Shown piece after piece: positions 373-33,530 of a stretch of 56,885 nt of DNA. The notes beneath the pieces are model-generated. The model worked only from the letters and a program-made list of their open reading frames with translations. It made no database searches and was not told the origin of the DNA. This stretch comes from a virus. The stretch is taken from the IMG/VR virus record IMGVR_UViG_3300030109_001059, positions 1-56,885 of that record; one strand, written 5' to 3'. Numbering within the stretch: the stretch's first letter is position 1; every line of letters begins with the position of its first letter. Made by a program: the position numbers and the translations under genes.

Positions 373-376
373 AAAA

Positions 377-2514: not shown

Positions 2515-2515
2515 C

Positions 2516-8905: not shown

Positions 8906-8914
8906 GATAGTGTT

Positions 8915-10057
8915 ATGGAGTTAAGCAATAAAGCTAAAGATAATTTAAAGAGAATATTCGGCGACAACATAGCTGAGCAAATTATTGCACAGTATGAATC
9001 TGTTGAAGATTCTATAATTTTTAAACAAATTGAAAAAAGTTGGGAAACTGATTTTGCAAGTATCGAAGAATATGATGCAAACTCGTTGCTTACACAACCG
9101 GAAATACTTGGACTTTTTAATCAAACAATTCTTGAAAATAATAAATTAATAGGACTTAGTTCAGTAAATCCTGAAGGTGTTACTAAAGGTGAATTAGATA
9201 GTTTTCTTATAGAGGTAAGAGACAGCGATGAGTTTAAAAGTGTTTTGTCGTTAACTACTCCTACTTTGGGAACAATTAATCCTGAAATGGTTAGAGAAGG
9301 ATTTATCCCTGAAGGCACAGAAGGGGTAGTAGCACCAGCTACGTCTTTGGGAGTTAGACCTACACCAGAAACTACTTATAGTACTGATGAGGAAGAAGCG
9401 TTAGCTGAGCTTTTTTCTGAAACTGATGAATGGTTTATTAAAGAAAATATAGGTGAAGTACTTAATTATTTGCCAGATGACCAGAAAGCATTAATAGCTA
9501 TTGAATTAGCGTTTGTGAATATTGGCAATATGGGCGATATTTTTAGGTCTGATGGTTCGTTTGACAATACTGCGTTTAATAACCAGATGCTAGAAGCGTA
9601 TAGAATGATGGAAATTGCTAAACCTACGTTGCCTGTTACTGATGTAGGTGGTGTTCCAGTACCTGCCCAGTTTGGTACTGGTGATCCGACAACGTTTAAT
9701 ATTTTAACTGGTCAAAGCGGAAGAACAGTAGAAGAAATACAAGCCTTATTTGAATTAGGTATAACTCAAGAACGAGAAGAAGAAGGTTATAAAGATTACG
9801 ACCCTGTGTATTTAATGGATGCTGTTAATAACAAAGCTGGCCAGATGTTAGGTATTGAATTAACAGAAGCGCAGAAACGAGCGTTTGTTGTTTTTATGAA
9901 AGAAACAGTTGACCATTATTATACTGATAATATGCAAATGCCTATGGTAGATTCTCAAGCTAAAAAGTTTGTGCAAGAAGAGTTCCCTAAATTGTCTCTA
10001 GCTGAAGCTGAGGGTTCGACTATTAGAGCTATTGAAGCTGCTGTTAGGAATATGTAA
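8915..10057 (+). CDS. Hypothetical acidic virion-module protein
   Basis: 380 aa, ATG nine bases after the giant gene's stop. The sequence is acidic and mostly helical, with no Cys and no membrane segment. Residues near 150-165 form an acidic stretch (STDEEEALAELFSET). No family recognised. Co-directional packing between the giant protein and the virion lysozyme implies a structural or assembly role. Confidence 0.65.
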   Translation: MELSNKAKDNLKRIFGDNIAEQIIAQYESVEDSIIFKQIEKSWETDFASIEEYDANSLLTQPEILGLFNQTILENNKLIGLSSVNPEGVTKGELDSFLIEVRDSDEFKSVLSLTTPTLGTINPEMVREGFIPEGTEGVVAPATSLGVRPTPETTYSTDEEEALAELFSETDEWFIKENIGEVLNYLPDDQKALIAIELAFVNIGNMGDIFRSDGSFDNTAFNNQMLEAYRMMEIAKPTLPVTDVGGVPVPAQFGTGDPTTFNILTGQSGRTVEEIQALFELGITQEREEEGYKDYDPVYLMDAVNNKAGQMLGIELTEAQKRAFVVFMKETVDHYYTDNMQMPMVDSQAKKFVQEEFPKLSLAEAEGSTIRAIEAAVRNM

Positions 10058-10114
10058 TGATAGATTTGGGTTATGTTTTTGCGTTGGTTGGTAGTGTTGC
10101 TGATGGGAGGCACT

Positions 10115-12187
10115 ATGGCTATTCCTAATATTGATTGGAATAAGTTTGAAAATTTAGCTGAAACTGACGGAGATTATAAGTTTGCGCTTGAGTTGATTAG
10201 GTCGTTTGATGCGGAAAAAGCTACGTTGGATTCTCAAAGAAGAGTTGAAAATGAGTTGCGTGATTCACGTAATCAAAATATAGAGTTAGAACGTGCGGTA
10301 ATTATGGCGCATGAAGGTTTCCGTGAAAATGCTTATTCAGATCCTTTGCGTGGCGATGATGTGCCGACTATAGGGTTTGGGTTTACTGGTGGCGTTCAAC
10401 CTGACGACACTATGGATAAAGAAACAGCTCTTGCTCGTTTAGATCAAGAAATTGAAAAACATAGAGAAATTTTATTTGCTGAACTTGCATTGAATACCGC
10501 TAGTTTGCGTAAAGGTAGTAGCGATCAAGATTATATTAATAGGTTTGGTGATGGTTGGCAGTATGATTTTATTAGTTCGGAGGCTGATGGTGAAGAATAC
10601 GCTCCGTTGCCTTCAGGTGCTACTGAACCGTATGTTGAATTAGATCAATATAGTCATGTAACTATTTACGGGTTTGAGAATAGAGAAGAGTTGTTAGCTG
10701 CTGGGCAAGAAAGGTATCAGTCTTTAGATGCGAATACGCAAGCTGCGGTTATGTCAATTACGTATAATTATGGTTCTGCTGGTGGCCCAGATTTTGTTAA
10801 AGAAATTAATAAAGCTGTAGATACTGGCGATGTTTTAGCGTTAGCTGATTATATTGATAACACAGAATATGGTTTAGCTGCTAATGATGGCGGTGCTTTG
10901 TATGGCAGGCGAAATGATGAAGCTAATCTTATAAGAACTGGAAGAAGTAAAGAGGTTGCTGCACACGCAGCTACTGGCACGTTAAAAGAATTTGGTATGG
11001 GCGATCCGTTCCAAGGTGGTAGCGCTGCTCTTCCTAAAGACACGGGTTATGTTGGAGCTACTAGATCTCGCAATCAAGGTACTGCCCGACAAAACCGCAT
11101 GTCGTCTAGGGCATTTATGGCAGATGGTTCTTTACCTCCTTCTGGGACGCAAGCTCAACCTGCTCAAGAAACAACTTTAAGTAGTAGCGGACCGTTTTTA
11201 GGAGTTCCATCTTTTGCGGATACGTTAGGAGATGCAACTGGTTTAAGTGAACAATACGGTGCGTTTGGTTTCTTTATGTATGACCGTGACATAAGAGGTG
11301 ATTTATATATCGGGCTTGATATTAATGGTAACCCTGTTGCATATAACGATCCTTCAAAATTAATGGAAGTAGACGTTGTTACTTATATAGAATCAACCAA
11401 TATAGACCCGACTACTGAAAACGCTATGCTGTACCAAATTCCGAGTTTGTTGCGTAAAACTGAATGGGGTATGGAAAATAATTCACGTATGCGTGAGTTC
11501 GATGTTGAGTATCAAAAGAAGAGTGAAGCAGATCGTTTAGAATTTTTGCAAGCAACTATAGATCAAGTAAGCGATAGCCTTAGAGGTCTTGGGTATGAGT
11601 TATCTGACCAAGAAGTTTATAATTTAGCTTATCAGTTTCAAAGATTAAATGGCCCTGTTACACAAACAAATACTGATACGTTGTATAAAACTATTTTTGC
11701 TGAAATTGAAAATAAAGAAATGGTTAATGAGTTAAATGAATTTCAAGGAATGGTAGAAAATACTTTAGTAACTGCTGGCGATTATTATTTAAATATGAAT
11801 GAAGAACAAGCTAGAGAATATGCAGAGCAGTTGCTTACTGGTGATTTAACTCAAGAAGAATTTAAACAAATGTTGCAGGATCAGGCGTATATTGCTTATC
11901 CGCATTTAGAAGAGCAAGCTACAAAATTAGGGGTGACTCCTAAGCAGTTACTTTTTAATACTGAAACATCTATTGAGAATTTGTTAGGTAAGAAAGTTGA
12001 TTTGCGTGATAGTAAATGGAATCCGGTTATAAATTATGTTGATAATTCAGGTAGCCCTAGATTGATGACTACTTGGGAAGCAGAAAATTATGTGCGTTCT
12101 ACTGGGGATTATTTAGGTAGTAACAAAGGGCAAGAAAAGATATATAGTCTTGTTGATGCTTTAGCTGATTCGTTTGGAAGGGTTTAG
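10115..12187 (+). CDS. Virion-associated GH24 (T4-type) lysozyme fused to a long structural region
   Basis: 690 aa from the ATG at 10115, preferred over 10073 because GGGAGG lies just upstream and the longer form adds only a short hydrophobic tail. Residues about 60-300 carry a GH24 muramidase: Glu67 in AHEGF, Asp76 in AYSDP and Thr85 in PTIGFGF give the E...D...T catalytic triad, with a few extra residues before the Thr; SITYNYG and NRR-like segments follow. The last 400 residues are helical and unassigned. GPFLGVPS near residue 350 recurs at the start of the next protein. A cell-wall hydrolase embedded in a long virion-module protein suggests local peptidoglycan cleavage at entry. Confidence 0.8.
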   Translation: MAIPNIDWNKFENLAETDGDYKFALELIRSFDAEKATLDSQRRVENELRDSRNQNIELERAVIMAHEGFRENAYSDPLRGDDVPTIGFGFTGGVQPDDTMDKETALARLDQEIEKHREILFAELALNTASLRKGSSDQDYINRFGDGWQYDFISSEADGEEYAPLPSGATEPYVELDQYSHVTIYGFENREELLAAGQERYQSLDANTQAAVMSITYNYGSAGGPDFVKEINKAVDTGDVLALADYIDNTEYGLAANDGGALYGRRNDEANLIRTGRSKEVAAHAATGTLKEFGMGDPFQGGSAALPKDTGYVGATRSRNQGTARQNRMSSRAFMADGSLPPSGTQAQPAQETTLSSSGPFLGVPSFADTLGDATGLSEQYGAFGFFMYDRDIRGDLYIGLDINGNPVAYNDPSKLMEVDVVTYIESTNIDPTTENAMLYQIPSLLRKTEWGMENNSRMREFDVEYQKKSEADRLEFLQATIDQVSDSLRGLGYELSDQEVYNLAYQFQRLNGPVTQTNTDTLYKTIFAEIENKEMVNELNEFQGMVENTLVTAGDYYLNMNEEQAREYAEQLLTGDLTQEEFKQMLQDQAYIAYPHLEEQATKLGVTPKQLLFNTETSIENLLGKKVDLRDSKWNPVINYVDNSGSPRLMTTWEAENYVRSTGDYLGSNKGQEKIYSLVDALADSFGRV

Positions 12188-12189
12188 AT

Positions 12190-13155
12190 ATGGCAAATGG
12201 GCCGTTTTTAGGAGTGCCTTCGGAAGAAGAAATTAATGAGGCAATAGAACAAGAAACACAAGATAATTTGTATGTAGGGCAAAATCCTTTTATAAATCAA
12301 AATATACCAGTACCAGATACACCAGAATATAATGCAGACGAAGCATACGACATACTTGAAGACTTGTTAAATCAATATGATTTACCTTTATCTTTAGTAG
12401 ATACAATTAAAGAATGGGTTTCTTTAAATCTTTCAGTTCAGCAGATGACAATTCGGTTACGAGGAACAGATGAATATAAAGATCGGTTTGCTGGTATGGC
12501 TACTCGTAGAGAAAACGGTTTGAATCAAGTTTCAGAAGCTAGATACCTTGAATTAGAAAGTGGTTACGCTAGTGTTTTAGCTGAATTTGGTTTGCCTAAA
12601 TCTTTTTATGATTCGCCTGAAGATTTTGCGTCTTTTATAGGCAACGATGTTTCGCCTGAAGAATTTGCTACACGTACAGCGTTAGCAGCGCAAGCAGTAT
12701 CAGAAATTGATCCTAATTTAGATGAAGAGTTACGGCGGTTGTATCCAGAAATAGACGACGGAGATTTAATATCGTATTTCTTAGATCCTGATAGGGCCGT
12801 TACTTTAATGGAATTAAAACTGCAAATGACTGCTGCTGGGTTATCTTCTACAGCTAAAAGCACTTTAGGTGAAGGGTTTAGTACTGGTGTGGCTGAACAG
12901 TTAGCTAGGCAACCTGATGTGCAACCAGTTTCAGTGCGTGCTTTAGCATCTAGCGCTGGTTTAACACAGTCTACGTTAAGAAGCGAAGGCGTTTCTGTTG
13001 ATACGTTAGCTTCTTCTGCTTTTGGGTTAGACGCTGATGACGCTACTTTAGTTAGGCGTATACGTGAAAGAAGGCAACAGACGCAACAGTCTGGAGCTGG
13101 TGGTTTGTTGCAACAAACTGGTGCTTCTGGGCTAGGCGCTGCACAAATGGCTTAG
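12190..13155 (+). CDS. Hypothetical virion-module protein with N-terminal GPFLGVPS motif
   Basis: 321 aa, ATG two bases after the lysozyme stop. It opens MANGPFLGVPS, the same motif found inside the preceding lysozyme protein, so the two may share a docking signal or have split from one protein. The remainder is acidic and helical; the last 35 residues are Gln/Gly/Ala-rich. No enzyme motif seen. Probably a virion component. Confidence 0.65.
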   Translation: MANGPFLGVPSEEEINEAIEQETQDNLYVGQNPFINQNIPVPDTPEYNADEAYDILEDLLNQYDLPLSLVDTIKEWVSLNLSVQQMTIRLRGTDEYKDRFAGMATRRENGLNQVSEARYLELESGYASVLAEFGLPKSFYDSPEDFASFIGNDVSPEEFATRTALAAQAVSEIDPNLDEELRRLYPEIDDGDLISYFLDPDRAVTLMELKLQMTAAGLSSTAKSTLGEGFSTGVAEQLARQPDVQPVSVRALASSAGLTQSTLRSEGVSVDTLASSAFGLDADDATLVRRIRERRQQTQQSGAGGLLQQTGASGLGAAQMA

Positions 13156-13295
13156 GTTGTAGACACAAACCTTAATTCTTTATATATTTATATTTGTGAT
13201 CTGCCCCATTAAGAGGGTGAGCCGTTCACACACAAAAAAAATTAACTCCGCTAACATGCCACCGTTGTTAGCGTGTACCAGAGGTGAGTGACATA
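13156..13295 (+). promoter_or_regulatory. Leader region before scaffold gene, with small hairpin
   Basis: A 140-base non-coding gap between two co-directional genes. It contains an AT-rich run (TTATATATTTATATTTG) near 13180 that could hold a promoter, and a 7-bp inverted repeat CGCTAAC / GTTAGCG at 13249-13255 and 13267-13273 just before the scaffold ribosome site. No T-tract follows the hairpin, so a terminator is unlikely. Confidence 0.35.
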
Positions 13296-13763
13296 ATGGA
13301 AAATGAGTCTACAGAAACCGAAGAAGTTTCTAGTACTGAATCCAAACCAAATTGGCGTAGAGAACTTGAAGCGAAAGCTGCGAGGGCTACTGAGCTTGAA
13401 GCGCAAGTTGAGCAGATGCAACGTAAAGAAGTGTTCCGTGATGCTGGCTTAGATCCATCTAATAAGATGACTGAGTATTTCATGAAAGGCTACGAAGGCG
13501 AGCTATCTGTTCAAGCGATACAAGCTGAGGCTAACGATGCTGGGTTGTCTGCTATGACGACTACAGCTAGTATCGGCAATTTGGCAGAGCAGCAGGCGCA
13601 AGCAAATCAGTTTGAAACGGAGCGTAGAATCCAACAAGCTGGCGATGATGCTGGTCCTGTGGCAGATGCTAACCTTATTGAGTTAATTAAACAAACTAAA
13701 AACCCTGAAGAATTACGGGCAATTTGGGAATCTAATGGCGGTACTTGGAACGCAATGGTGTAA
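13296..13763 (+). CDS. Putative scaffolding protein (part A)
   Basis: 156 aa from ATG 13296, chosen over GTG 13284 because AGGTGAG sits at a suitable distance. Small, acidic at the N-terminus (MENESTETEEVSS), then a coiled coil around residues 25-50 (ELEAKAARATELEAQ) and a helical Gln-rich centre. This composition and the position directly before the major capsid gene are typical of scaffolds, which template the procapsid and leave before or during DNA filling. Short compared with many scaffolds. Confidence 0.65.
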   Translation: MENESTETEEVSSTESKPNWRRELEAKAARATELEAQVEQMQRKEVFRDAGLDPSNKMTEYFMKGYEGELSVQAIQAEANDAGLSAMTTTASIGNLAEQQAQANQFETERRIQQAGDDAGPVADANLIELIKQTKNPEELRAIWESNGGTWNAMV

Positions 13764-13794
13764 GTAGGCTCCAAACTTAATTGGAGAAACTACA

Positions 13795-14733
13795 ATGGCA
13801 ACTACAGGAACGGGACAAGTAAGTTCCGATACCGCCGCATTTGAACAGTTAGCGTATTTCGCTCTCCGTTCACAACCTATGTTTGAGATGGTATGTGACG
13901 TAAAGTCAACTAACCAGTCTCATGCAGGTGCTAGCGTCCAATTCAACATTTATAGTGACCTTTCTCAAGCTACATCAGCTCTCACTGAAGCCAGTGACGT
14001 AACTGCTGTTGCGCTTGGTGATTCAACGGTTACTGTAACTCTTGCTGAATATGGTAACGCTGTCACCACAACCGCTAAACTCCGTGGAACCAGCTTCTTA
14101 AACGTAGACGCTGACGCTGCGAACATTATCGGTTACAACATGGCCAACAGCCTCGACAATATCGTTCACGGTATTCTTGTCGCTGGAAGCAACGTGCTGT
14201 ACGGTGGCGATGCCACAGCTACAGGAGAACTAGCAGCAGGCGATATTATGACCGCTGCTCTTGTCCGTAAAGCTGTTGCTAATGCCCGTGCTGCATCTGC
14301 ACCTACTTTTGATGGAGGCGTTTACGTTGGATTTATCCACCCTGACGTTTCCTACGATTTACGAAATGCTACTACGGTAACTGACGTAATCGCACACCAA
14401 AACCAGCAAGACGCTGGCGCTATCCGAACAGGTAGCATTGGTGTTTATGGTGGTGTTGACTTCATTGAAACCCCACGTTTGGACATTGGTACAAACGCTG
14501 GTGCTTCTAATGTTGACGAGTATGAAACCATTATCTGTGGTAAGCAAGCTATGGCAAAAGCCGTTAGCCGTGCAGCCGGATTTGGTGAAGACCCCAGTGT
14601 CGTATTTGGTCCTACAACTGATCTCCTCCGACGTTTCAACCACGTTGGCTGGTATCACCTTGTTGGGTACTCACGATTCCGTGAAGCATCCATCAGAAGG
14701 ATTGAATCTTCATCCTCAATAGGCGCTAACTAA
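13795..14733 (+). CDS. Major capsid protein (part A)
   Basis: 312 aa, with a GGAGAAAC ribosome site before the ATG. The features fit the HK97-fold capsid proteins of small phages: no Cys-rich or membrane segments, beta-rich FNIYSDLSQAT near residue 45, YGNAVTTTAKLRG, and a C-terminal region with FGEDPSVVFGPT and GWYHLVGYSRFRE. It lies after the scaffold and before a strong terminator, the usual place for the most abundant virion protein. Codons here are more C/G-ending than in flanking part A genes, as expected for high expression. It is only distantly comparable with the second capsid protein at 51092-52054. Confidence 0.8.
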   Translation: MATTGTGQVSSDTAAFEQLAYFALRSQPMFEMVCDVKSTNQSHAGASVQFNIYSDLSQATSALTEASDVTAVALGDSTVTVTLAEYGNAVTTTAKLRGTSFLNVDADAANIIGYNMANSLDNIVHGILVAGSNVLYGGDATATGELAAGDIMTAALVRKAVANARAASAPTFDGGVYVGFIHPDVSYDLRNATTVTDVIAHQNQQDAGAIRTGSIGVYGGVDFIETPRLDIGTNAGASNVDEYETIICGKQAMAKAVSRAAGFGEDPSVVFGPTTDLLRRFNHVGWYHLVGYSRFREASIRRIESSSSIGAN

Positions 14734-14752
14734 TAGCTCCTAACGATAGTTT

Positions 14753-14798
14753 GGGAAGGCTAACTTTACTGGGAGGTTGGCCTTCCCTCTATCTTTTA
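14753..14798 (+). terminator. Rho-independent terminator after capsid gene
   Basis: Inverted repeat GGGAAGGCTAAC ... GGTTGGCCTTCCC (14753-14787) with one mismatch, followed by TCTATCTTTT. It lies 20 bases after the capsid stop and would uncouple abundant capsid transcription from the tail genes. Confidence 0.75.
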
Positions 14799-14826
14799 AT
14801 GTGTTAGTATATTATTATTAACGGTT

Positions 14827-14913
14827 ATGGAAGACGAACAAGTAGATGTGGTTATAACTGCTGAGACGATACAAGCCAGTGTTGTAACTGATAAGGAGAA
14901 CGCTGATGGCTAG
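14827..14913 (+). CDS. Possible 28-aa acidic peptide
   Basis: ATG to TAG, product MEDEQVDVVITAETIQASV plus nine residues. It overlaps the next gene's start by eight bases, a typical coupling arrangement, and the AAGGAG inside it serves the next gene. No clear ribosome site of its own. It may be a real small protein or just leader sequence. Confidence 0.3.
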   Translation: MEDEQVDVVITAETIQASVVTDKENADG

Positions 14914-15334
14914 CGGACTTTATGGGATAACGTTCCTAAACGCTTTAAAAAATACTCTTGCGTTAGATTTAGACAGCGACACTATTAAAATAATGTTAGT
15001 TACGTCGTCGTATACGCCTGATTTTGGAGCGCACGATTTTAAAGCTGATGTAAGTAATGAAGTTTCTGGAACTAATTATACTGCTGGTGGTAATACGTTA
15101 AGTAGTTTGGCTTTGACTCAGACAGGTGGCACTATTAAGTTTGATGCTGCCGATACGTCATGGTCATCTGCGACGATTACAGACGCTAGAGGCGCTGTGA
15201 TTTATGACGATTCTTTAACTGATGATCCGCTTATTGCGTATATTGATTTTGGTGCTAATTTTTCGTCGAGTAATGGCACGTTTACAATTGCGTTTAATGC
15301 TGGTGGTATTTTCACGATTGATTTAACTCCGTAG
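14906..15334 (+). CDS. Small beta-rich virion protein
   Basis: 142 aa, AAGGAG before the ATG. It begins MASGLYGITFLNALKNT and is rich in Ser, Thr, Gly and Asp with alternating beta pattern; no membrane segment or Cys. Proteins of this look are frequent next to fibre genes in aquatic phages, but I cannot name a function. Position after the capsid terminator and before an S74 fibre suggests a tail or decoration protein. Confidence 0.6.
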   Translation: MASGLYGITFLNALKNTLALDLDSDTIKIMLVTSSYTPDFGAHDFKADVSNEVSGTNYTAGGNTLSSLALTQTGGTIKFDAADTSWSSATITDARGAVIYDDSLTDDPLIAYIDFGANFSSSNGTFTIAFNAGGIFTIDLTP

Positions 15335-15342
15335 GAGGGTGA

Positions 15343-16368
15343 ATGGCTGCAACAAATTATCCAAGTAGTTTAGATAGCACAAGTAATCTTCCGAGTAGTA
15401 TTTCTGAAACTGCTAATCTTAATTCACCTAATCATGCTGATATGCATGAGGTTACGAATACGGCGATTGTTCAAATTGAGGAGAAGGTAGGTACTGGTGA
15501 TACTACTGCTTCTACTGGCGCTGTTCTTATAGGTACTGGTTCTGGGGCTTCTGCTTGGGATACGTCACCTACGTTTCTTGGCGATGTAACTGTTGGCGTT
15601 AATGATACTGGCCATGACGTTAAGTTCTTTGGTGCTTCTGCGGATCATTGGATGCTTTGGGATCAAGCGTATGATGCTTTAGTTCTAACTCAAGATAGCG
15701 GTATATATTTTTATGATAGAGGTGGCGAAAGAATTGTAGCTGCTGGTGATGGGCATTTAACTATGGATGCTGGTACTACGTTGGATTTCACAGCACCAAC
15801 GATTGATTTGAATGCTTCTACAATAGTTACTATAGATGGTGACGTTGACCTTAACGGCGCTTTAGATGTTTCTGGCACTTTAAAAGTTGCTAATGGGTCT
15901 GACAGCGCCCCTTCTTTAACGTTTGCTAGTGACCCTGATCTTGGTTTTTTTCGATCAGCAGCAAACAACATGGGTTTTAAAGCTACGTTACCTACAGTTA
16001 CAAGTTACACAACGTTACGTCGAGGAGAAGACGCTAGTGGCAGGACGTTAGTAATAGGTGCAGATAGTTCGTCAAAACGGTATAAAGAAAATATTGAAAA
16101 CTTTACCAAATCAGATTGGGAAAATGTTTACAATTTACAAGCTGTAAAGTTTAACTGGAAAGAAGAAATAAACGCACAACGTACACGATCATTTGGTTTA
16201 ATAGCAGAAGACGTAGCCGAACAAATCCCAGAACTAGGCGTTTACCGTGTTGTCGATAGTGAAGGCGACACTCCTGTCGTTGACTCAGTAAACTACGAAC
16301 AACTATGCGTGTATTTGCTTGAAGTTGTTAAAGATCTAAATAGCCGTTTAAAAACATTAGAAGGATAA
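15343..16368 (+). CDS. Tail fibre with C-terminal S74 self-cleaving chaperone
   Basis: 341 aa. The N-terminal region has the motif TVGVNDTGHDVKFFGAS (about residue 85), shared with the fibres at 17460 and 55410, probably a conserved attachment module. The middle is beta-rich. The last about 100 residues are an S74 intramolecular chaperone: SSSKRYKENI gives the catalytic Ser-Lys region, FGLIAEDVAEQIPELG is the family core, and it ends in a coiled coil (LLEVVKDLNSRLKTLEG). Such domains trimerise the fibre and cut themselves off. A second S74 protein occurs at 54616-55410. Confidence 0.85.
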   Translation: MAATNYPSSLDSTSNLPSSISETANLNSPNHADMHEVTNTAIVQIEEKVGTGDTTASTGAVLIGTGSGASAWDTSPTFLGDVTVGVNDTGHDVKFFGASADHWMLWDQAYDALVLTQDSGIYFYDRGGERIVAAGDGHLTMDAGTTLDFTAPTIDLNASTIVTIDGDVDLNGALDVSGTLKVANGSDSAPSLTFASDPDLGFFRSAANNMGFKATLPTVTSYTTLRRGEDASGRTLVIGADSSSKRYKENIENFTKSDWENVYNLQAVKFNWKEEINAQRTRSFGLIAEDVAEQIPELGVYRVVDSEGDTPVVDSVNYEQLCVYLLEVVKDLNSRLKTLEG

Positions 16369-16370
16369 TA

Positions 16371-16502
16371 ATGGAACTCAGCCCAGTAGAGATACTTCAA
16401 GAAGTAGAAAGACAATTTCCGCTACAACTACAAATCTGCGTACAAGCAGTACAAATCAGAAAGTTACAAGAGCCACCAGAAAATGATACCGACAACGAAT
16501 AG
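16371..16502 (+). CDS. Small fibre-linked protein, 43 aa (paralogue of 18520-18687)
   Basis: ATG two bases after the S74 fibre stop. The product MELSPVEILQEVERQFPLQ... has the core EILQEV-x7-P-x4-I-x-VQAVQIRKL, matching the 55-aa protein at 18520-18687 (AILQEIQ...P...ISVQAVRISAL). Two copies next to fibre genes in the two halves argue for a real gene and a conserved fibre-linked role, perhaps a chaperone; the role is inference. Confidence 0.6.
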   Translation: MELSPVEILQEVERQFPLQLQICVQAVQIRKLQEPPENDTDNE

Positions 16503-17208
16503 CAGTATAAATACTAAACTTCTACACCCTGAGTTTAAACGCAGGTTAGAAGCGTTTTTTGCAGATGACAGAATTTCTGGCCGTGTCAAGGTAGTATCTG
16601 CTGTACGTACTTACGCACAACAAAAATACTTGTACGACGGATACAAAAGCGGTAGGGCAGGTTTTAACCTAGCAGCTAACCCTGACCGTAAAACAGCGTC
16701 AGGCTTTCAGGGTTCGTATCACATGCAGCAACCAGCGTTTGATAACTGGGGTTATGCCGTTGACTTTAGAATTACTGGGCGTGGTATCAGTACTTCTCAA
16801 GTAAACGCTATAGCTAAATCTTATGGTATGGTTGCATACGTTAGAGGAGAGTGGTGGCATCACCAGCCTTGCAAGGTAGTTAAGGGCAAGATTCAGTGGT
16901 TTGATGCTCCGGCTTTGAAGGGAACGAAAGCTAAGAAGAAAGTTAAGCAAGACCTTAAGGGTATCGGCGCTGCGTTAGCTGAGATAGAAGATTTGATTCG
17001 ACGGCATCCGTTGAAGAAGGGTTCTAAGGGGCAGCCTGTGAAAGTAGTTCAGGGGCTTCTTGGTAATAAGGGGTTTTATCGGTACAAAGTTGATGGGGAT
17101 TTTGGAAGGCTTACGCATAAGGCTGTTGTGGAGTTTCAGAAGCGTCGTCTATTATATGTTGATGGGATTGTTGGTCCTAATACTTGGAAGGCTTTATTGA
17201 GAAAATGA
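16483..17208 (+). CDS. Endolysin: M15 (VanY-like) D,D-peptidase with peptidoglycan-binding domain
   Basis: 241 aa, starting inside the previous gene with a 20-base overlap. Residues 1-135 resemble M15 zinc carboxypeptidases: SAVRTYAQQ (39-47), His80 in GSYH, Asp94 in WGYAVDF and Glu123-His126 in EWWH. The spacing from His80 to Asp94 is longer than the usual SxHxxGxAxD. Residues 175-241 are a PG_binding_1 repeat domain (KGSKGQPVKVVQGLL, VDGDFGRLT, VDGIVGPNTW). It would cut the peptide stems of peptidoglycan at lysis. A holin gene follows. Part B instead uses an amidase (26139-26912) with the same binding domain. Confidence 0.85.
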   Translation: MIPTTNSSINTKLLHPEFKRRLEAFFADDRISGRVKVVSAVRTYAQQKYLYDGYKSGRAGFNLAANPDRKTASGFQGSYHMQQPAFDNWGYAVDFRITGRGISTSQVNAIAKSYGMVAYVRGEWWHHQPCKVVKGKIQWFDAPALKGTKAKKKVKQDLKGIGAALAEIEDLIRRHPLKKGSKGQPVKVVQGLLGNKGFYRYKVDGDFGRLTHKAVVEFQKRRLLYVDGIVGPNTWKALLRK

Positions 17209-17450
17209 AAGAATATTTAGATTTACTTGAACGCTGCGGAGCGACTTTCGTACAAGCAGCAGTAGCCACGATCAGTGGTAACTCCTTCCTTGAGATGGGC
17301 GTAAGCAACTGGAAACTTGTTGTAGCTTCTGGGTTTGCTGCCGTGTTATCTGTTCTTAAAGGTTGGGCTGCTACTAAAGTTGGAGATAGTTCGTTCTCGT
17401 TGGTTGGTCGTAAGACTCAATCTGAGGAGATTCTTTACGGAGAAGAATAG
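17205..17450 (+). CDS. Holin-like membrane protein (part A)
   Basis: 81 aa from ATG 17205, which overlaps the endolysin stop (ATGA). One or two weakly hydrophobic helices (GATFVQAAVATISG and KLVVASGFAAVLSVLKG) followed by a charged tail fit the r1t-type phage holin pattern, ERxxxTFxQA then a membrane segment. It would release the M15 endolysin. A related layout occurs at 28370-28558. Confidence 0.7.
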   Translation: MKEYLDLLERCGATFVQAAVATISGNSFLEMGVSNWKLVVASGFAAVLSVLKGWAATKVGDSSFSLVGRKTQSEEILYGEE

Positions 17451-17459
17451 GGGTGTTGT

Positions 17460-18233
17460 ATGGCTACAAATTTCCCTAGTAGTTTAGATACTTCGACTCA
17501 GCAGCCGACAATTGCTGCGTCGGATGAGATGGATGATTCTGGTAAGGAACATGATGTTGTTCATACAAATCATTCTGGTGCGATTATTGCGTTAGAGACG
17601 AAGTTGGGTACTGGTGATTCTAATGCTGTTGCTGATGCTGTGCTTATGGGTACTGGTTCTGGTACGTCTGCGTGGGATACTTCTCCTACGTTTAAGGGTG
17701 CGTTGACTGTCGGTGTTAATGGTACTGGGCATGATGTAATTTTCTACGGAGCGACAGCCGACACTAGTTACTTTTGGTGGGACGAAAGCGACGACAGAAT
17801 GGTGGTCAGTGGGAAGGTAGAATTTGTTGGCGACGGCGCTTGGAAAACATGGACTCCAACATGGGGCAACGTATCAATCGGAAATGCGACAGTAGTTGCA
17901 CAATACGTTCAGCTCGACGAATGGGTATTCGTAAAAATGAGAGCTGTAGCAGGTAGTGGGACTGGTTATTCGTCAGGGTCTATGTCCGTGTCACTTCCAG
18001 TGGCAGCAGAGGGTAATACTAGCTACCAATGGCTAACCTGTGCGTTAGCTCCAGACGGAGGAACGCTTTATGAAGGGCCAGTTCTGACTTCAGGGTCTTC
18101 AGCGTTTCTTTGCACTGAGGTTGCAAGTAGCACTTACGCTTCTTTGACGAATGCCAACGGTGGTACAAGTGTTCCAGCAGGGTGGAACACAAGCGGAATT
18201 ATTCACATGAACGGATGGTATCGGGCAGCATGA
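17460..18233 (+). CDS. Tail fibre/adhesin, chimeric junction candidate
   Basis: 257 aa. The N-terminus MATNFPSSLDTSTQQP resembles that of the 15343 fibre (NYPSSLDSTS), then comes [18 protein letters not shown], then a receptor-side region ([15 protein letters not shown], then beta-rich to HMNGWYRAA). Bases 17761-17987 are nearly identical to the last 227 bases of the window. The N-terminal part therefore belongs with part A genes and the C-terminal part may belong with part B, so this CDS may be a natural mosaic or an assembly join. Followed by a fibre-assembly-type protein in TGATG overlap. Confidence 0.75.
   Translation: MATNFPSSLDTSTQQPTIAASDEMDDSGKEHDVVHTNHSGAIIALETKLGTGDSNAVADAVLMGTGSGTSAWDTSPTFKGALTVGVNGTGHDVIFYGATADTSYFWWDESDDRMVVSGKVEFVGDGAWKTWTPTWGNVSIGNATVVAQYVQLDEWVFVKMRAVAGSGTGYSSGSMSVSLPVAAEGNTSYQWLTCALAPDGGTLYEGPVLTSGSSAFLCTEVASSTYASLTNANGGTSVPAGWNTSGIIHMNGWYRAA
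17761..17987 (+). repeat. 227-bp direct repeat, copy 1 (fibre segment)
   Basis: Matches 56659-56885 at a constant offset of 38,898 with three mismatches; 17880-17987 is exact for 108 bases and ends where the window ends. Similarity falls quickly upstream of 17761. Confidence 0.95.
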
Positions 18234-18520
18234 TGATCCAAATAGGTTTAGAACCAGCACATGGAGTTTACAATTCTGGGACCGAACAGTGGGAGGATGG
18301 TACTGACGGCCCAATGAGTGACGCTCAATGGGTGGCCATGCTCAGACGAGAAAGAGATCGTCGCCTAGTAACTTCTGACTGGACTCAAACAGCAGACAGC
18401 CCATTGTCTGATTCTAAAAAAGTTGAATGGGCTTCATATAGGACAGCATTGAGAAATTTGCCTGCAACTGCTACCTTGGGAATGGTTGTAGAGTTTCCTG
18501 ACCCACCTGAAGGAGCGTAA
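18230..18520 (+). CDS. Tail-fibre assembly/chaperone-like protein
   Basis: 96 aa from ATG 18230, overlapping the fibre stop. The pattern LRRERDRRLVTSDWTQTAD then WASYRTALRNLP is the common C-terminal signature of small phage fibre-assembly or tail-associated proteins (DUF4376-like). It ends in an acidic, Pro-rich tail. It lies between a fibre and a giant virion protein, consistent with helping fibre folding or attachment; the exact role is inferred. Confidence 0.65.
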   Translation: MMIQIGLEPAHGVYNSGTEQWEDGTDGPMSDAQWVAMLRRERDRRLVTSDWTQTADSPLSDSKKVEWASYRTALRNLPATATLGMVVEFPDPPEGA

Positions 18521-20613: not shown

Positions 20614-23600
20614 ATGGCAATAGAGTTTGATTCAGCGGGGCCTTTAACAGAAGAAGTTAAACTTTCTCGTTCTAATATAGCCAAAGCTCTGGGGATACAA
20701 GCTCCGACGACTCCTGCTCCTGCTCCTATTGTCCCCCAACAACCTATAGCACCTCCACAGACTACTGGATTTAGTGTTGCTGGGCCTCTTACCCAGCCTA
20801 AGCCGAAGCAAAGCGGAGGTATTTTTGATGTACCTATTTTGGGTCCTATCATTGGCGTGCTTGACGCTCCGCGTTCTTTTTTGGTTTCTACAGTTAAAGA
20901 AGTAGGAGATATTTTTGCAGATGGGCAAAGCTTTTCTTTAAATGAATGGTGGGATCAAGCTAACCGTCACATGATGGGGGGAGAAGTACTCAGGGATTGG
21001 AATATTGGGCCTGATGGTTTAGAAGGTTTTCTTCTTGGTTTAAGTCTTGATGTTGCTTTAGATCCTTTGACGTATATGGCTGGCCTTGGGTTGGCTGCTA
21101 GGGCTTCTAAAGTTGATGATGTCGCTAAGGCGCTTATCGACGTGGGTCGCACAGCAGAAAAAGCTGGCGATATTCAGAAAGCTGAACGAATGTTCAGAGC
21201 TGAGGAGGCTGTATCCCGTAGTCGCACGATTATGGCTGGCGGAGATGCTTTAAAAGAAATAGGTATTGATACAGGGTTAAGGTTTACTATTCCTGCGACT
21301 GGCCGTTTAGGTCGAGGAATCGTTGAACGCCCTTTGCGTTCTATGGTTCCTCGTCTTGGCGATTGGTTGGATGTTCGCCGTGTTCAACAGTTAGCTCCAA
21401 CTGCTGTTAAGGGTAGGTCTGGTTCTTTAACGTTTGTCGAGAAGGCCATTGACACTACTGATGATGTGGTGCAAGCCCAAATTCTTAAAAGGATGGGAGA
21501 TATACGAAAAGGGGTTCTTGGCGGTGGTGTGAATAGGCAAATAGATGCTGCTGCTCGTGCAGCTATGAACATGCCTGTTGAAGCGTTTAAGATTCCTTTT
21601 TCTACGGGAAGAGTTATGGCTACTATGGCTGGTAGTTTGGGTAAGACTTGGCGTGGTGTGTTGGCGACTAAGTATGGGGCTAGCATAGCTGATGGTCTTT
21701 CTACTTCGGCTCCTATTCGTCGGTCTAGGTCCGCTAAGAATGCTGAAGAGCGTCTTTGGGGCTACTTTGGTCAGGAGGGGGCGCAAGCTTCTGATGTATC
21801 TGCGGGAATCTGGAAAACATATACTTCAAATGAGTTTAACAAGATCGTTAGGAACGCTCATAAAGCTGGTTTAACAGATGAGGACTTTGCTAAAATTATG
21901 GTTGGTGTTGAAGCTCCCCTTAGGTACAGGCTAGCTGCAGCGGGGCAGGAAGGTGTTCTTCCCCCTAGCCAGTTCACTGGGGAGGAAATACTTAACCCTT
22001 ATCTTTTGGAGTTATCTGGTAAATACCATACTGATGCGTGGATAGATACGCATACGGCGCTTGTTAATTTTTGGGAAAACGTTGGAACTAAATGGAATGA
22101 TTCTTTGCCTCTTGCTGGTGTTAAACCGCATTTGTCTATGTTGAGGGAGCAGTTTTATTCTGCTCACTTTATTGATGATGAGGGGTGGCGGGCTTTAAAA
22201 CGATTAGGCCCTGACGATCCGATGCTTCCTGCTGATAAAGCTGGGACTACTGGTTTGCGTGGTTCTGCAACTACTGGAAGAAAGATAGCTGAACCTGAAG
22301 AAATAGTTAGGATGGTTGAGGACAACTGGGGTTCATTTAATATATCTCCAGAGTTTACGCGAATGATTCATCCTCGTAAATTGAACTTAAATAGGAATGT
22401 CGGTAGGGAAGAGTTCTTAGCAAAGCTTAGAATCCATTTAAATACTGTTGGTGAAAGTCTTACTATTAAGTTAATGGATGGCGGAGAAGCTGTTCGCCAT
22501 AATTTAGTTGGGAAAGCACCTATTAAGGACCCAAGGTTAGCTGGGGGGTTAAGCGCTCGCGCTCAGCAGGTTAAACTTGGGGAAGATGCTGGGCTTGAGA
22601 ACTGGATCGATATTTTTTCTAAAGATCCTCAGAAGGTATTTACTCGGTATGTAACCCAGATGGAGTCAACGCTTCGCGCTGACTACATGCTTGATTACTT
22701 TCAGGAGGCAGGCATTGTTGTCAAAGGTTTTGAAGGTCAGCCATTTCTTGGCTCCTATGATAACTTTCAAAAACAAATACTGGCGATGTTTCCTAAAGTA
22801 TACGCCCAGATGTGGGATGGTACTGCTTTAGGTAGAAAGGGTGTAAGTAGGAAGTATCGAGGGACGATGGCCCAGCAGCAAGATCTAGATAGGGTCGCTG
22901 CTGAAATTAACGATTTGGAAGATGCTCTTGCTTGGATGGATAATCCTGTTGGCCCGTATGGGGGCAGCAAAAACGTTTCTGCTGCTTCTGTTGAAAAGAG
23001 CAAAGCGGTAGTTCGAGATCTGGCTCAGGTTGAGGGTTTAATTTCTGATGTTACAAGTGCGGTGTCTGCTTTGTTAAATGGTTCTATGAAGGGTTTAAGT
23101 CAACGTGCCCGTATGCTTTTGCAGGGGGATGAAGTTGTTCTTGATTTAGCTGGGACTGTTTCTAAGAAGCAGTTCAAAGAAGCTCGTAGGGCTGCTGGTC
23201 TTGAAGTTACTAAAGGTCTTCCTAAAACAGCTAGAGTTAAAATTCCTCGCCCTGCAACAAAAGCGCCGTCTACTACGGGTCTTGCTCGTGCTTTTAAGAA
23301 TAAGGAAGTTATAGAGGCGAGTCAGGAGGAAGCTGCTCAGATACTTGCAGAGTTGTACGGGGTGCAGCAGTCTCTTAGGGCCGTGGTGACTGGTATTCAG
23401 AATCAAATTAAGTTAGTTGGTAAGGTCGCTGAAGGCGCTCCTGAATCTATTAGAAACTTGTGGGATTTGGGCGAGGGCCTCCCTGCGTACCGCCCTCGTA
23501 ATTTACGAGATATTAGTCAAGCTGACGATTTGGATACGTTGTTGGGGGCAGCTAAAGAAGCTGATTATGCTAAGGAATCTTTTGGTGTAACCCCTTCTCA

Positions 23601-26139
23601 GTATTTGAGTAGTTATCAGAAGAGAGTTGAACGAGCTGTTGATCGTTTGGGTGGCATGATTGACGGTATGCAATCTGTGTTGGCTAAGAACATTGTTGAT
23701 TCTGACCCGACTACGATTACTGCTAATTTGATTACTGACATTGGGCAGCTTTCTGCAAAGGTGTCTCCTGATTTATCTGCGTTGCGTCAGGTATTAACTA
23801 ACATGGATAGCGGTACGTTGCAGAGCATTCGGAAATCTCTTCAGGATTTCCGTGAGGTTGGACGTACAGCGGTGCAGTCAGCCCGTCGCGGTGTAGCGTC
23901 TTTACCTGATCCTTTAACTGAAGATGTTATTAGAGCTATTGATGCAGCTTTGAAGGGCAAGCGTATCCCTAGTAAGCAAGTTTATGCGAAGAATCTCCCG
24001 TTGGATATTTTAGAGCAGTTGGCTGTGAAGATGGGTCCTAGTGCTGGTGGGCCTTTGCGCCAGTGGGTTGCTTCTGTTAAGCAGTTGGAGCGAGAAATGC
24101 TTGAGTTGGGGCGTGCTTGGGATACTAATTTAACGCCTAGCATTAATGCAGCTAGAAATTACAAAGGCCAGTTGCTTACTGATTTAGCTTCAGCAGAGGA
24201 AGACATTATTGTTGCTTTAGTGAAAGAGTTAGAAGCTCAAGTTGCTAAAGGTACGGCCAGTATTAAGAACAGGGAAGCTGCTGCTAGTTTAGAGGGGTGG
24301 GCTGCGGAGCTTAAAGGCGTAAGAGAATCAGGCAAGACTTACTTGGAAGGGCAACGGGCTACATGGCAAGCCCGTTTAGATGAAGCTGTTCTTAGGCAGG
24401 CAGATCTAGAAGAAATTAGAGATATTCGTCAAGCTTGGCTTATGGATTCGTTTAGGTCTATTAAAGAATTTAGAAGCCAATACAACGAGGTGCTTTCTTC
24501 TCCTGTTCTGAAAGATAGGGTCCTTGCTTCTGAAACTGCTAACGATGCTTTGAAAGCTATGAACGATAACCGTGTAGTTTTGGGTTTTGCTGATGCTTGG
24601 AGTGAGGCAGCGCAAAAGACCGCTCTTCATTTGCATGATTTAAGTGGGACTCAGGGAGCTAATATATCGAACTTTACTAGAAATAAGTTAAGGGGTTATT
24701 CGCTTGCTAGTGATACTCCTTTGACGACGCAACAGCTTGAGAATTTTCAGGCGTTGTTTCAGGCTTCTGCGAAGATGCACCCTGAGAGTTTGAAGCCTTG
24801 GGCTAAGAATTATTTGACGCTTGTGAATTGGTGGAAGGCTATGGCTATTTCTACTACTGGGTTTATTTGGCGTAACACTATGGGTGGTTTCTGGTTGAAT
24901 AACCAGATAGCTGGGGTTCCGCTTTCGACGCATACTCGTGTGTTGGGGATACGCAATCTGGCTTCTAAGGCTGGCGATGGAGATATTTATACTGGTATTA
25001 ATAAGTTAATTGAGCGGGGTTCTACTGTCAGTATGGAGAAAGGCTTTCTGCTTGGTGCTGGTAGTAGCACCAAGGTGACGGTTGATGAGTTGCGTTTGTT
25101 TAAGGAATGGCTTGATACTGGGGTTGCGACAAGCGGTCAGGTTTCTCAAGAGATTGTTTCTACTTTGGATACTATGGGTGCGATGACTCGTAGGGAGAAG
25201 TTGGCTCAGGGTGGCACGATTAAGCCTTGGAAAGCAGAGTTCTATCCTGCTGCTGGTATTCGTATTCTGAACCAAGACGCTGAGTTCATGTTACGCGGGG
25301 CGGTTGCTCATCACACGATGATGACTGGTGGCTCGGTTGATGACGCTTTTAAGCAGGCTGAGAAGTTTCATTTTAATTATTCTGATCTTACTCAGGCCGA
25401 GCGTAACGTTAAGATGGCTGTTCCTTTCTGGACTTGGCAGAAGAACATTGTTCCTGTGTTGTTGGAATCTTTGGGTAAGAACCCTAGGGCTTGGGCTAGG
25501 CTCCAACAAGTCAAGAACAATTTAGAGTTCCAGTCCGATGAGGAGGGTGTTGTTCCTGATTTCTTTGCGGAGAATATGGGGATGCGTACTCCTTGGTCGT
25601 TTGATAGTTCTCGTATTTATGTTTTGCCTGATTTGCCGTTTAGGGATTTGAGTCGTTGGTTGAAGGAGGCTGATAGCCCTCAGGATATGTGGAAGTCTCC
25701 TACTCGTGCGGTTGTTGAATCTGCGTTGCCTTGGTTTAAGTTACCTATTGAGCTTTGGGCTGGGAAGCAGACGTTTGCTGATATTCCTATTACTGGTAGG
25801 TATCAGCAGGCCCCTATGTGGGCGAGGGTTCCTGTGTTCCAGCAGGTGCTTGAGGGTATGGGTATACTTAAAAGAAATAAAAAGGGCCAGTTGAAGATGC
25901 GCGATAACCATATTTATATGTTGGATCAGTTTCATCCGATGTTTGGTCGTGCTCGTAGGTTGTGGCCGAACGAGGAGGGCAAACAGGAGCGGTGGTTTAC
26001 TACTGTTGTTAACACTGCTTTGGGTTTGGGTCTTCGTATGAACACGCCTAGGGCGCAACGTGGTCAACGTATTAAAGATCAAGTTGAAGTGTCGCAGATG
26101 TTCCGTGACATGGTTGATCTAGAAAGAAGAGAAATTTAA
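20614..26139 (+). CDS. Giant virion protein, 1841 aa (part B), putative internal/ejection protein
   Basis: ATG two bases after the previous stop. The N-terminus is Pro-rich with the motif AGPLT twice (about residues 8 and 54). Most of the chain is helical. A region about residues 1270-1450 is followed by a hydrophobic stretch (LTLVNWWKAMAISTTGFIW), and NVKMAVPFWTWQKN parallels SPFFNAWQEV in the part A giant. The last 60 residues are basic. No catalytic motif found. Codons are markedly more G-ending (TTG, AAG) than in the part A giant. Probably ejected with or guiding the genome; inference from size and context. Confidence 0.75.
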   Translation: MAIEFDSAGPLTEEVKLSRSNIAKALGIQAPTTPAPAPIVPQQPIAPPQTTGFSVAGPLTQPKPKQSGGIFDVPILGPIIGVLDAPRSFLVSTVKEVGDIFADGQSFSLNEWWDQANRHMMGGEVLRDWNIGPDGLEGFLLGLSLDVALDPLTYMAGLGLAARASKVDDVAKALIDVGRTAEKAGDIQKAERMFRAEEAVSRSRTIMAGGDALKEIGIDTGLRFTIPATGRLGRGIVERPLRSMVPRLGDWLDVRRVQQLAPTAVKGRSGSLTFVEKAIDTTDDVVQAQILKRMGDIRKGVLGGGVNRQIDAAARAAMNMPVEAFKIPFSTGRVMATMAGSLGKTWRGVLATKYGASIADGLSTSAPIRRSRSAKNAEERLWGYFGQEGAQASDVSAGIWKTYTSNEFNKIVRNAHKAGLTDEDFAKIMVGVEAPLRYRLAAAGQEGVLPPSQFTGEEILNPYLLELSGKYHTDAWIDTHTALVNFWENVGTKWNDSLPLAGVKPHLSMLREQFYSAHFIDDEGWRALKRLGPDDPMLPADKAGTTGLRGSATTGRKIAEPEEIVRMVEDNWGSFNISPEFTRMIHPRKLNLNRNVGREEFLAKLRIHLNTVGESLTIKLMDGGEAVRHNLVGKAPIKDPRLAGGLSARAQQVKLGEDAGLENWIDIFSKDPQKVFTRYVTQMESTLRADYMLDYFQEAGIVVKGFEGQPFLGSYDNFQKQILAMFPKVYAQMWDGTALGRKGVSRKYRGTMAQQQDLDRVAAEINDLEDALAWMDNPVGPYGGSKNVSAASVEKSKAVVRDLAQVEGLISDVTSAVSALLNGSMKGLSQRARMLLQGDEVVLDLAGTVSKKQFKEARRAAGLEVTKGLPKTARVKIPRPATKAPSTTGLARAFKNKEVIEASQEEAAQILAELYGVQQSLRAVVTGIQNQIKLVGKVAEGAPESIRNLWDLGEGLPAYRPRNLRDISQADDLDTLLGAAKEADYAKESFGVTPSQYLSSYQKRVERAVDRLGGMIDGMQSVLAKNIVDSDPTTITANLITDIGQLSAKVSPDLSALRQVLTNMDSGTLQSIRKSLQDFREVGRTAVQSARRGVASLPDPLTEDVIRAIDAALKGKRIPSKQVYAKNLPLDILEQLAVKMGPSAGGPLRQWVASVKQLEREMLELGRAWDTNLTPSINAARNYKGQLLTDLASAEEDIIVALVKELEAQVAKGTASIKNREAAASLEGWAAELKGVRESGKTYLEGQRATWQARLDEAVLRQADLEEIRDIRQAWLMDSFRSIKEFRSQYNEVLSSPVLKDRVLASETANDALKAMNDNRVVLGFADAWSEAAQKTALHLHDLSGTQGANISNFTRNKLRGYSLASDTPLTTQQLENFQALFQASAKMHPESLKPWAKNYLTLVNWWKAMAISTTGFIWRNTMGGFWLNNQIAGVPLSTHTRVLGIRNLASKAGDGDIYTGINKLIERGSTVSMEKGFLLGAGSSTKVTVDELRLFKEWLDTGVATSGQVSQEIVSTLDTMGAMTRREKLAQGGTIKPWKAEFYPAAGIRILNQDAEFMLRGAVAHHTMMTGGSVDDAFKQAEKFHFNYSDLTQAERNVKMAVPFWTWQKNIVPVLLESLGKNPRAWARLQQVKNNLEFQSDEEGVVPDFFAENMGMRTPWSFDSSRIYVLPDLPFRDLSRWLKEADSPQDMWKSPTRAVVESALPWFKLPIELWAGKQTFADIPITGRYQQAPMWARVPVFQQVLEGMGILKRNKKGQLKMRDNHIYMLDQFHPMFGRARRLWPNEEGKQERWFTTVVNTALGLGLRMNTPRAQRGQRIKDQVEVSQMFRDMVDLERREI

Positions 26140-26912
26140 TGTCATTAACTATTATATCTAGGGATGGTTGGGGCGCTCGGCGACCCAAGAGGCCGTTTAG
26201 TAGGCTGAATAAAAACAGGGTTAAGGGAATTGTGTTACATCATTCTGGTGTGAAGAACGGCCCGAAGGGTGTGTCTGCTGTGCAGGCTTTTGAGCGTCAT
26301 CATATTGACGCTAATGGTTGGAACGGTATTGCGTACAACTGGTTGGTGGATGAGCAGGGGGTTGTCTACGAGGGTAGGGGTGCTGGTGTGATTTCTGCTG
26401 CGAATCGTCCTTGGAATAGCCGTACAGAGGCTATTTGTTATACGGGTTGGGGTGGTGACCCTATTCCTGAGGCTACGAAGCGGTCTATTAAGGCTTTGGT
26501 GGATGATATTCAGAGGCGTTATGACGGCAAGTTGTGGGTTAAGGGCCATAGGGACCTTGCTTCTACGACTTGTCCTGAGCAAATGCTGTATCACTGGATG
26601 CAATCTGGTATGCCGTTGAATGGTCCTGTCATTAAATCTGATAAAGAGGTTGTTCAGGAGAACGTTGAGTTGGCTCGTTTGGGCGGTCAGGTATCTAAGA
26701 AGCCACTATCACGGAGGCGTAGAAGCCGTGGAGAGGCTGTCAGAGCCGTTCAGAGCCGTTTAAATGAGTTGGGGCATGATACAGGACCCGTCGATGGGGT
26801 TTATGGCCCTAAAACGGCTGCTGGTGTCCGTTCGTTCCAACATAAATTTCGTGATTTTTTAACTGTTGATGGGGTAGTTGGTCAGCAGACTTGGAAGATG
26901 TTGTTTAGCTAG
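26139..26912 (+). CDS. Endolysin: PGRP-type N-acetylmuramoyl-L-alanine amidase with peptidoglycan-binding domain
   Basis: 257 aa; ATG overlaps the giant gene's stop. Residues 5-155 are an amidase_2/PGRP domain: RDGWGAR at the N-terminus, zinc ligands His34 (IVLHHSG), His137 (KGHRDL) and Cys145 (STTCPE), and YNWLV near Tyr66. Residues about 185-257 are a PG_binding_1 domain (RAVQSRLNELG, VDGVYGPKT, VDGVVGQQTW). It cleaves the bond between glycan and peptide stem for host lysis. A holin-like gene lies 1.5 kb downstream. The binding domain parallels that of the M15 endolysin, but the catalytic domain differs. Confidence 0.9.
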   Translation: MSLTIISRDGWGARRPKRPFSRLNKNRVKGIVLHHSGVKNGPKGVSAVQAFERHHIDANGWNGIAYNWLVDEQGVVYEGRGAGVISAANRPWNSRTEAICYTGWGGDPIPEATKRSIKALVDDIQRRYDGKLWVKGHRDLASTTCPEQMLYHWMQSGMPLNGPVIKSDKEVVQENVELARLGGQVSKKPLSRRRRSRGEAVRAVQSRLNELGHDTGPVDGVYGPKTAAGVRSFQHKFRDFLTVDGVVGQQTWKMLFS

Positions 26913-28876: not shown

Positions 28877-28900
28877 CTCGTCGCGTGGACGCGACGGGTT
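28875..28900. terminator. Palindrome copy 2 as bidirectional terminator between convergent genes
   Basis: AACTCGTCGCG-TGGA-CGCGACGGGTT: 11-base arms with one T-G pair, overlapping the stop codons of both converging genes. The position suits a two-way terminator, although the T-tracts are short. Confidence 0.6.
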
Positions 28901-29312
28901 ACAGTCCGAGTTTGTCTCGAACTACCTCGTGTTTAAGTAGTTCGTTACGAATTTTCTTAGCTAGTTCATCTCTTTGTCTAGCGAACGTTGTTTTAGGTAT
29001 GTTTAATGTTCGTGCTACGAACCGCATGGATAGTCCTACTTCTACGAGCATGTGGTATATCCATTGTTCTTCTTCTGTTAGTGTATCGAATGTTGCTTGA
29101 ACGGCAAGAACGAGGTCAGCGTTTAACCGACCTCGTTCTTCTTGAGATAATGCAGGTTCTATATATGGGCCTGCACTTATTAATGCTTCAGCTACGGTAT
29201 CAGGGATACGTTCTGACGCTACTCCAAATGATTTTCGTAAAGGTTGGAGAGAGGGAAAGTTTAGATCTTTTAACCTCTCGAATATGAGTTCCCCCTCTGT
29301 GGGGTCAGTCAC
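28899..29312 (-). CDS. Sigma-like helix-turn-helix protein
   Basis: 137 aa from GTG, overlapping the upstream gene. The C-terminal 60 residues resemble sigma-70 region 4: LTEEEQWIYHMLVEVGLSM, then VARTLNIPKTTFARQRDEL as the HTH. There is no region 2, so it is more likely a transcription activator or sigma-like cofactor than a full sigma factor. It is the last gene of the early block, next to the end of the late genes. It is a natural candidate to recognise the bipartite motif found upstream of late genes; this link is inference. Confidence 0.65.
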   Translation of the reverse strand: MTDPTEGELIFERLKDLNFPSLQPLRKSFGVASERIPDTVAEALISAGPYIEPALSQEERGRLNADLVLAVQATFDTLTEEEQWIYHMLVEVGLSMRFVARTLNIPKTTFARQRDELAKKIRNELLKHEVVRDKLGL

Positions 29313-29757
29313 TATTCCAAGGTAAAAGCTTTGAACTTATAGAGAAGTACTTCTTTCCCTCATGGAAGCTCCCAATAGGAACATCATTTTTGTTGATAAT
29401 ATCCATCATGTTTCTGAAGGATAGCTCAGCGTAGTTTTGTCTGGTGGATGACCAGACCCAAATCCATACTGGAGCGCCTGCGCCGTCCCACCATTGTAAC
29501 GCAGCGAGCTTTTCCATCTTAAATTTTAATGGGGTTTTGCCCATGCCTACTACTTCGACCAGCCTTGTGGGGTCTGCTTGGATGTAGTCGGGCGTGTATC
29601 GCAGTACATGTGGGAGGTAATGAAATTTAGTCATTCCTTCTGGGCGGTTAAAGCCGTACCTCGCCCACTGGGTATTGTGGGCTTCAAATTGGGATTCGGC
29701 TTCATCGCCCATAGAAGCAAACCGTTCTTGGTATGTTCCTTCATGGAATGCTTTCAT
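29305..29757 (-). CDS. Putative PD-(D/E)XK-like nuclease
   Basis: 150 aa, ATG with GGGAG upstream, overlapping RusA by four bases. YTPDYIQADPTRLVEVVGMGK followed by KMEKLAALQWW resembles the core of small PD-(D/E)XK endonucleases (PD, then E-x-V near a Lys), with the Lys displaced. Lies beside RusA and a primase, so a DNA-processing role fits. A degenerate active site is possible. Confidence 0.5.
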   Translation of the reverse strand: MKAFHEGTYQERFASMGDEAESQFEAHNTQWARYGFNRPEGMTKFHYLPHVLRYTPDYIQADPTRLVEVVGMGKTPLKFKMEKLAALQWWDGAGAPVWIWVWSSTRQNYAELSFRNMMDIINKNDVPIGSFHEGKKYFSISSKLLPWNSD

Positions 29758-32695: not shown

Positions 32696-32710
32696 GGTCT
32701 TCCTTTCTCC

Positions 32711-33484: not shown

Positions 33485-33497
33485 GTGGTCCTCTCCC

Positions 33498-33515
33498 CGT
33501 CGCGTTTACGCGACG
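33498..33515. repeat. Palindrome copy 3: CGTCGCG-TTTA-CGCGACG
   Basis: Directly upstream of the ribosome site of the Cas4-like gene. Full 7-base arms plus one outer C-G pair, TNNA centre. Confidence 0.9.
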
Positions 33516-33530
33516 GTGTTCGCCAAGTCA

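Follow-up and report, generated by a model that had tools for sequence, protein, structure and literature searches.

The IMG/VR record IMGVR_UViG_3300030109_001059, classed as linear, is analysed here as a whole (56,885 bp; hereafter the window). Its hallmark genes are doubled: there are two portals, two capsids, and a terminase plus a terminase fragment. Is this one virus with two sets of modules, or two phages joined into one contig? The preliminary description favoured a rho-shaped join, in which a path through one phage enters the circular genome of another via a shared fibre segment, and named a true dual-module genome as the alternative. The comparisons below argue strongly that the window is such a rho-shaped chimera of two phages, and that the 56.9-kb record, taken as one genome, is not real. 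We refer to the upstream phage as B and to the downstream phage as A. Features lie on the plus strand unless stated otherwise.

A direct repeat and the closed genome of phage A

Positions 17,693-17,987 (copy 1) recur in direct orientation at 56,591-56,885 (copy 2), with 94% identity over 295 bp and an offset of 38,898 bp, a match far beyond chance. The window had been said to end inside a repeat of 17,761-17,987 with its last 108 bases exact, and the sequence comparison bears this out: there are three mismatches in 17,757-17,987, at 17,813, 17,874 and 17,879, and 17,880-17,987 is identical to 56,778-56,885, reaching the final base of the contig. Copy 1 further differs from phage A at 17,750 and 17,756. 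A terminal repeat of a linear genome was considered and rejected, as copy 1 lies inside the contig and the unit separating it from copy 2 is a whole genome.

The completeness of that unit (17,988-56,885; one turn of 38,898 bp) can be read from a separate contig, L004 (IMGVR 3300030110_002958, 38,954 bp), found by scanning viral contigs with the downstream (A) capsid. L004 contains window 50,991-56,885 (99.93% identity) and then, unbroken, window 17,988-51,046 (99.93% counted from 17,693), so that it is collinear across 56,885 to 17,988, and after exactly 38,898 bp its end overlaps its own start by 56 bp. The identity of this end overlap is 92.9%, i.e. not exact, which we counted against the chimera reading; L004 and the window may also come from related samples, their independence being not proven. 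Over the 295-bp repeat L004 shows no difference from copy 2 but does differ from copy 1; copy 2 is therefore phage A's sequence. With L004 included, ten distinct A-type contigs lead from A's upstream genes to A's gene at 19,166 or to its giant gene, in the same direction; in L004 the spacing from the upstream genes to the downstream gene is 3,451 bp, the distance round the circle. The complete 38,898-bp circle proposed for the window is thus confirmed by a contig that joins 56,885 to 17,988 with the same period.

The description of a single full phage gene set round this circle also holds, with the large terminase there comprising two ORFs. The giant protein (20,614-26,139; 1841 aa) has no Pfam or PHROG match and is followed by an amidase endolysin (26,139-26,912; Amidase_2, E = 1.3e-15). 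The early block occupies the minus strand (28,899-42,246) and includes a DnaB-like helicase (30,966-31,997) and a primase-like protein (30,082-30,978), with matches to phrog_243, phrog_21866, DnaB_C and AEP-TOTE. The primase-like protein, whose gene adjoins that of the helicase, matches the archaeo-eukaryotic primase domain AEP-TOTE (PF22548) with E = 2.2e-15. The portal (48,353-50,254; phrog_1216), scaffold (50,320-51,072; phrog_3927) and capsid (51,092-52,054; phrog_9953) lie further on. A collagen-like fibre (55,410-56,885; Collagen PF01391, E = 3.1e-22) runs over the circle closure into a tip ending at 18,233, and in L004 it is one open frame across the closure.

The two ORFs of the phage A large terminase (46,210-47,768) encode the ATPase (46,210-47,100; phrog_5989, Terminase_6N) and the nuclease (47,097-47,768; phrog_38407, phrog_24361), overlapping by ATGA. 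The halves are in different frames in all 36 of the A-type loci that cover both. In L033 a whole gene for a 277-aa PAPS-reductase-like protein (2858-3691 of that locus) sits between them, and L034 has a gap of equal size. We found no clear precedent for split large terminases in the literature; a conserved two-protein packaging motor would deserve separate study. Directly before the terminase, the minus strand encodes a 2OG-Fe(II) oxygenase (45,597-46,211). The nearest annotated relative of phage A is Caudoviricetes sp. ct52p938 (MW202803, Manatee Spring), with 42.5% identity in the portal and 36.7% in the capsid. The order terminase-portal-capsid is the same in both, but the large terminase of MW202803 is annotated as one 1,683-bp gene, unlike the two ORFs of phage A.

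Phage B as a separate genome

The upstream segment (1-17,879) is about half a genome of phage B and is 94-98% identical to contigs L090, L087, L088 and L084; its right border falls between ~17.7 and 17.99 kb. L090 (IMGVR 3300009481_000002, 37,652 bp), found via the upstream (B) capsid, has a 123-bp exact terminal repeat and hence represents a circle of 37,529 bp. It carries window 1-17,737 at 94-98%, except in two places, a short one near 12.2 kb and the inner part of fibre 1 (15,558-16,328); past 17,737 it has its own fibre tip and then an early region that has little in common with the window. L087 tracks the window up to 17,755, with one interior gap, and then diverges, while L088 ends at window 17,702 and L084 at 17,627. 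Both sides of the join therefore continue differently elsewhere: L004 passes from 56,885 to 17,988, and L087 and L090 turn to other sequence near 17,737-17,755.

The upstream gene set had been given as a second portal, scaffold, capsid, giant protein, endolysin and holin. This stands, but a piece of the large terminase was missed. It is the C-terminal 123 aa of the protein, cut by the contig start (1-372); the fragment itself has no family match, and the same frame ends a 637-aa ORF with a terminase-like layout in L090. The window thus starts inside B's large terminase and the other half of B is left out, which accounts for the lack of replication genes upstream. Next come the portal (377-2,146; phrog_104, E = 6.8e-7), a giant protein of 2129 aa (2,516-8,905; phrog_10618, of unknown function, E = 1.3e-19; no Pfam match), a 704-aa virion protein with a lysozyme domain (10,073-12,187; Phage_lysozyme PF00959, E = 6.4e-10), the major capsid protein (13,795-14,733; phrog_1357, E = 2.8e-66), fibre 1 with an S74 chaperone domain at its end (15,343-16,368; Peptidase_S74, E = 7.7e-11), the endolysin (16,483-17,208; phrog_2649, E = 9.9e-25; PG_binding_1) and a putative holin (17,184-17,450), a small hydrophobic ORF after the endolysin. 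Fibre 1 and the fibre 2 that follows the holin have hinge segments (15,463-15,644 and 17,580-17,761) that are 74% identical. This segment is a TVGVN-TGHDV module, which precedes many fibre tips in other contigs.

In the records compared, the two phages are joined only in the window. The B capsid was absent from all 25 A-type records and the A capsid from all 33 B-type records, with queries that work on positive control records. Among all loci fetched, the B holin occurred with A's downstream genes only in the window's own. Megablast of both parts of the window against 50,697 phage records gave no match. Tetranucleotide composition was dropped as a chimera test, since correlations within and between the phages were alike and the GC difference alone was weak.

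A shared fibre-tip and chaperone cassette

The region through which the phages are joined is an exchanged cassette of hinge, fibre tip and chaperone (17,704-18,501), with high-identity borders marked by L108 (17,704-17,833, 96%) and L183 (17,887-18,501, 96%). The tail fibre chaperone gene (18,182-18,520; Phage_tail_APC PF16778, E = 6.9e-18; phrog_4912) may start nearer 18,236. Two contigs, L183 (3300030109_003330) and L185 (3300030110_001701), start inside the fibre tip and carry the A-type tip and chaperone, L185 at 96% to 18,002-18,501; directly after these, both have a B-type endolysin and holin (90%) and then B-type early genes. In L183 and L185 the tip and the PF16778 chaperone are both 93-96% identical at the protein level. 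The IMG sample number of L185 is also that of L004, which places A and this B-type phage in one sample.

L108, which shares its sample number with L183, carries a B-type capsid together with a fibre whose end, at window 17,833, is in this module. At their far ends L108 and L183 are identical over 98 overlapping bases, and the two contigs very probably form one B-type genome of ~38.0 kb whose only gap (~53 bp) lies in the cassette. Between A and this B-type genome the cassette (~0.8 kb) is 92-96% identical, whereas elsewhere there are only short patches of 67-82%. Tip and chaperone have thus really been exchanged between the A and B lineages. As L183 and L185 show, the tip and the adjacent chaperone gene move together, in carriers that are otherwise distantly related.

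Distant tips of the same family (~25-38%) are found on short fibres of the B-type genomes L151, L136, L149 and L091, three of which closely share the N-terminus of the ORF that spans the join. Six contig ends lie within 150 bp of the hinge module, against 1.5 expected (Poisson P = 0.004; one of the six comes from the present case), a modest excess that is not our main evidence. The B-type contig L094 (13,595-13,984) contains the C-terminal part of an S74 fibre of A (61% identity), perhaps a second A/B fibre exchange. A and B also have in common, at 67-75% (43,046-45,186), a small ORF (phrog_6437) and a protein that is rich in proline/threonine and acidic residues, has a signal-like start and is encoded in A between the terminase genes.

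The tip had no match in 50,697 phage records (tblastn, 1e-5), a collection that may or may not include the Alteromonas phages A5 and V22 discussed below. The structure model of the tip, a weak one with a mean pLDDT of 65, is similar to predicted phage fibre proteins (best E = 4.7e-8); in the PDB there is no significant match, and several phage receptor-binding proteins are among the weak ones. The tip's position, the chaperone and these model resemblances point to a probable receptor-binding role.

How the contig may have formed

The join lies within one ORF (17,460-18,233) that combines the N-terminus of B fibre 2, as in the B-type L087 and L151, the hinge and an A-type tip; from 17,880 it is identical to A. 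Its layout is that of fibre 2 in L151 (247 aa). Since this is a natural layout for a B fibre 2, the false crossing is likely to lie inside the tip (17,880-17,987) and not in the hinge, and the 108-bp exact stretch, immediately preceded by mismatches at 17,874 and 17,879, is the most likely place for it. If B owns the sequence before 17,880, copy 1 should differ from A there, as it does at 17,750, 17,756, 17,813, 17,874 and 17,879. Ownership of 17,693-17,879 by B is likely but not proven, as the A-type L181 has the copy-1 bases at 17,750 and 17,756 too.

We hold with high confidence that the sequence is best explained as a chimeric metagenomic contig of two co-occurring, unrelated phages, joined via a nearly identical exchanged cassette. 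The window's own B strain would carry an A-like tip on fibre 2, and a de Bruijn graph with k of up to ~108 would collapse the identical 17,880-17,987 of both genomes. The assembly path would then run along B through the terminase, capsid, lysis and fibre-2 genes to the shared stretch, leave it along A, go once round A's 38,898-bp circle and halt on meeting the merged node again. Counting against this explanation, no other contig shows how the window's own B strain continues past 17,987. The join of two phages through a shared fibre segment, as originally suggested, is nevertheless supported: the halves are found separately and the segment is present in both lineages.

In a variant of the chimera that we consider unlikely, the window's B strain would lack an A-like tip; 17,693-17,879 would come from a third phage or an A variant, and the crossing would lie at the hinge or involve three genomes. 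Fibre 2 of the nearest B strains, L087 and L090, does leave the window at the hinge (~17,737-17,755), and the copy-1 bases shared with L181 would fit such a source. Against this, A-type tips do occur in a B-type genome, and fibre 2 of B-type genomes such as L151 bears this tip family behind the same N-terminus.

Highly improbable, in our judgement, is a real recombinant molecule, formed in a co-infected cell by a single crossover in the cassette between a B genome and an A concatemer, and then sequenced. Parts of the cassette shared by the lineages are indeed close enough to identity for recombination, and one such crossover would give exactly the window's sequence. However, such molecules should be rare beside their parents, assembled contigs follow the abundant sequence, and the loci fetched contain no second case. 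If a recombinant were the true explanation, the cassette would be an active crossover point at which unrelated lineages are still exchanging host-recognition tips.

A true dual-module genome of ~57 kb with two portals, capsids, giant proteins and lysis sets is scarcely credible: the contig is continuous and the junction ORF is open, but in other contigs each half belongs to a closed genome of its own, the arrangement has no support from any related contig and no record tested carries both capsids, the left end is a cut terminase with half of B missing, and at the right end interior sequence comes round again after precisely one A genome.

Consequences and comparison with known systems

Counted as one 57-kb virus, a record that comprises a complete genome and half of another would distort analyses of genome size, gene sharing and taxonomy. 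A chimera of this kind has a searchable signature: a contig end at which an internal fibre segment recurs at a distance of one genome length, together with doubled hallmark genes. At such cassettes virome assemblies may break or cross. On the biological side, phage lineages with almost nothing in common in their backbones exchange a small fibre tip together with its chaperone gene, and the sharing of both by A and B suggests a common host or receptor.

As an artefact the chimera is ordinary, and the cassette adds a new case to a known kind of exchange. In simulated data, virome contigs that combine distinct genomes with a highly similar region usually make up <5% of contigs of at least 10 kb (Roux et al. 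2017, PMC5610896). The window is likewise built of distinct genomes that share a highly similar region. It differs in that it contains one component in full, as exactly one turn, so that a true genome can be read off the chimera, and in that the shared region is an identified, exchanged fibre cassette. The Alteromonas phages A5, V22 and P24 offer the closer parallel for the exchange itself: a tail fibre and its adjacent chaperone are common to these distantly related phages and were read as horizontal transfer (PMC10579305). In contrast to that module, only the tip and chaperone (~0.8 kb) are shared between A and B, on different fibre bodies, that of A being collagen-like.
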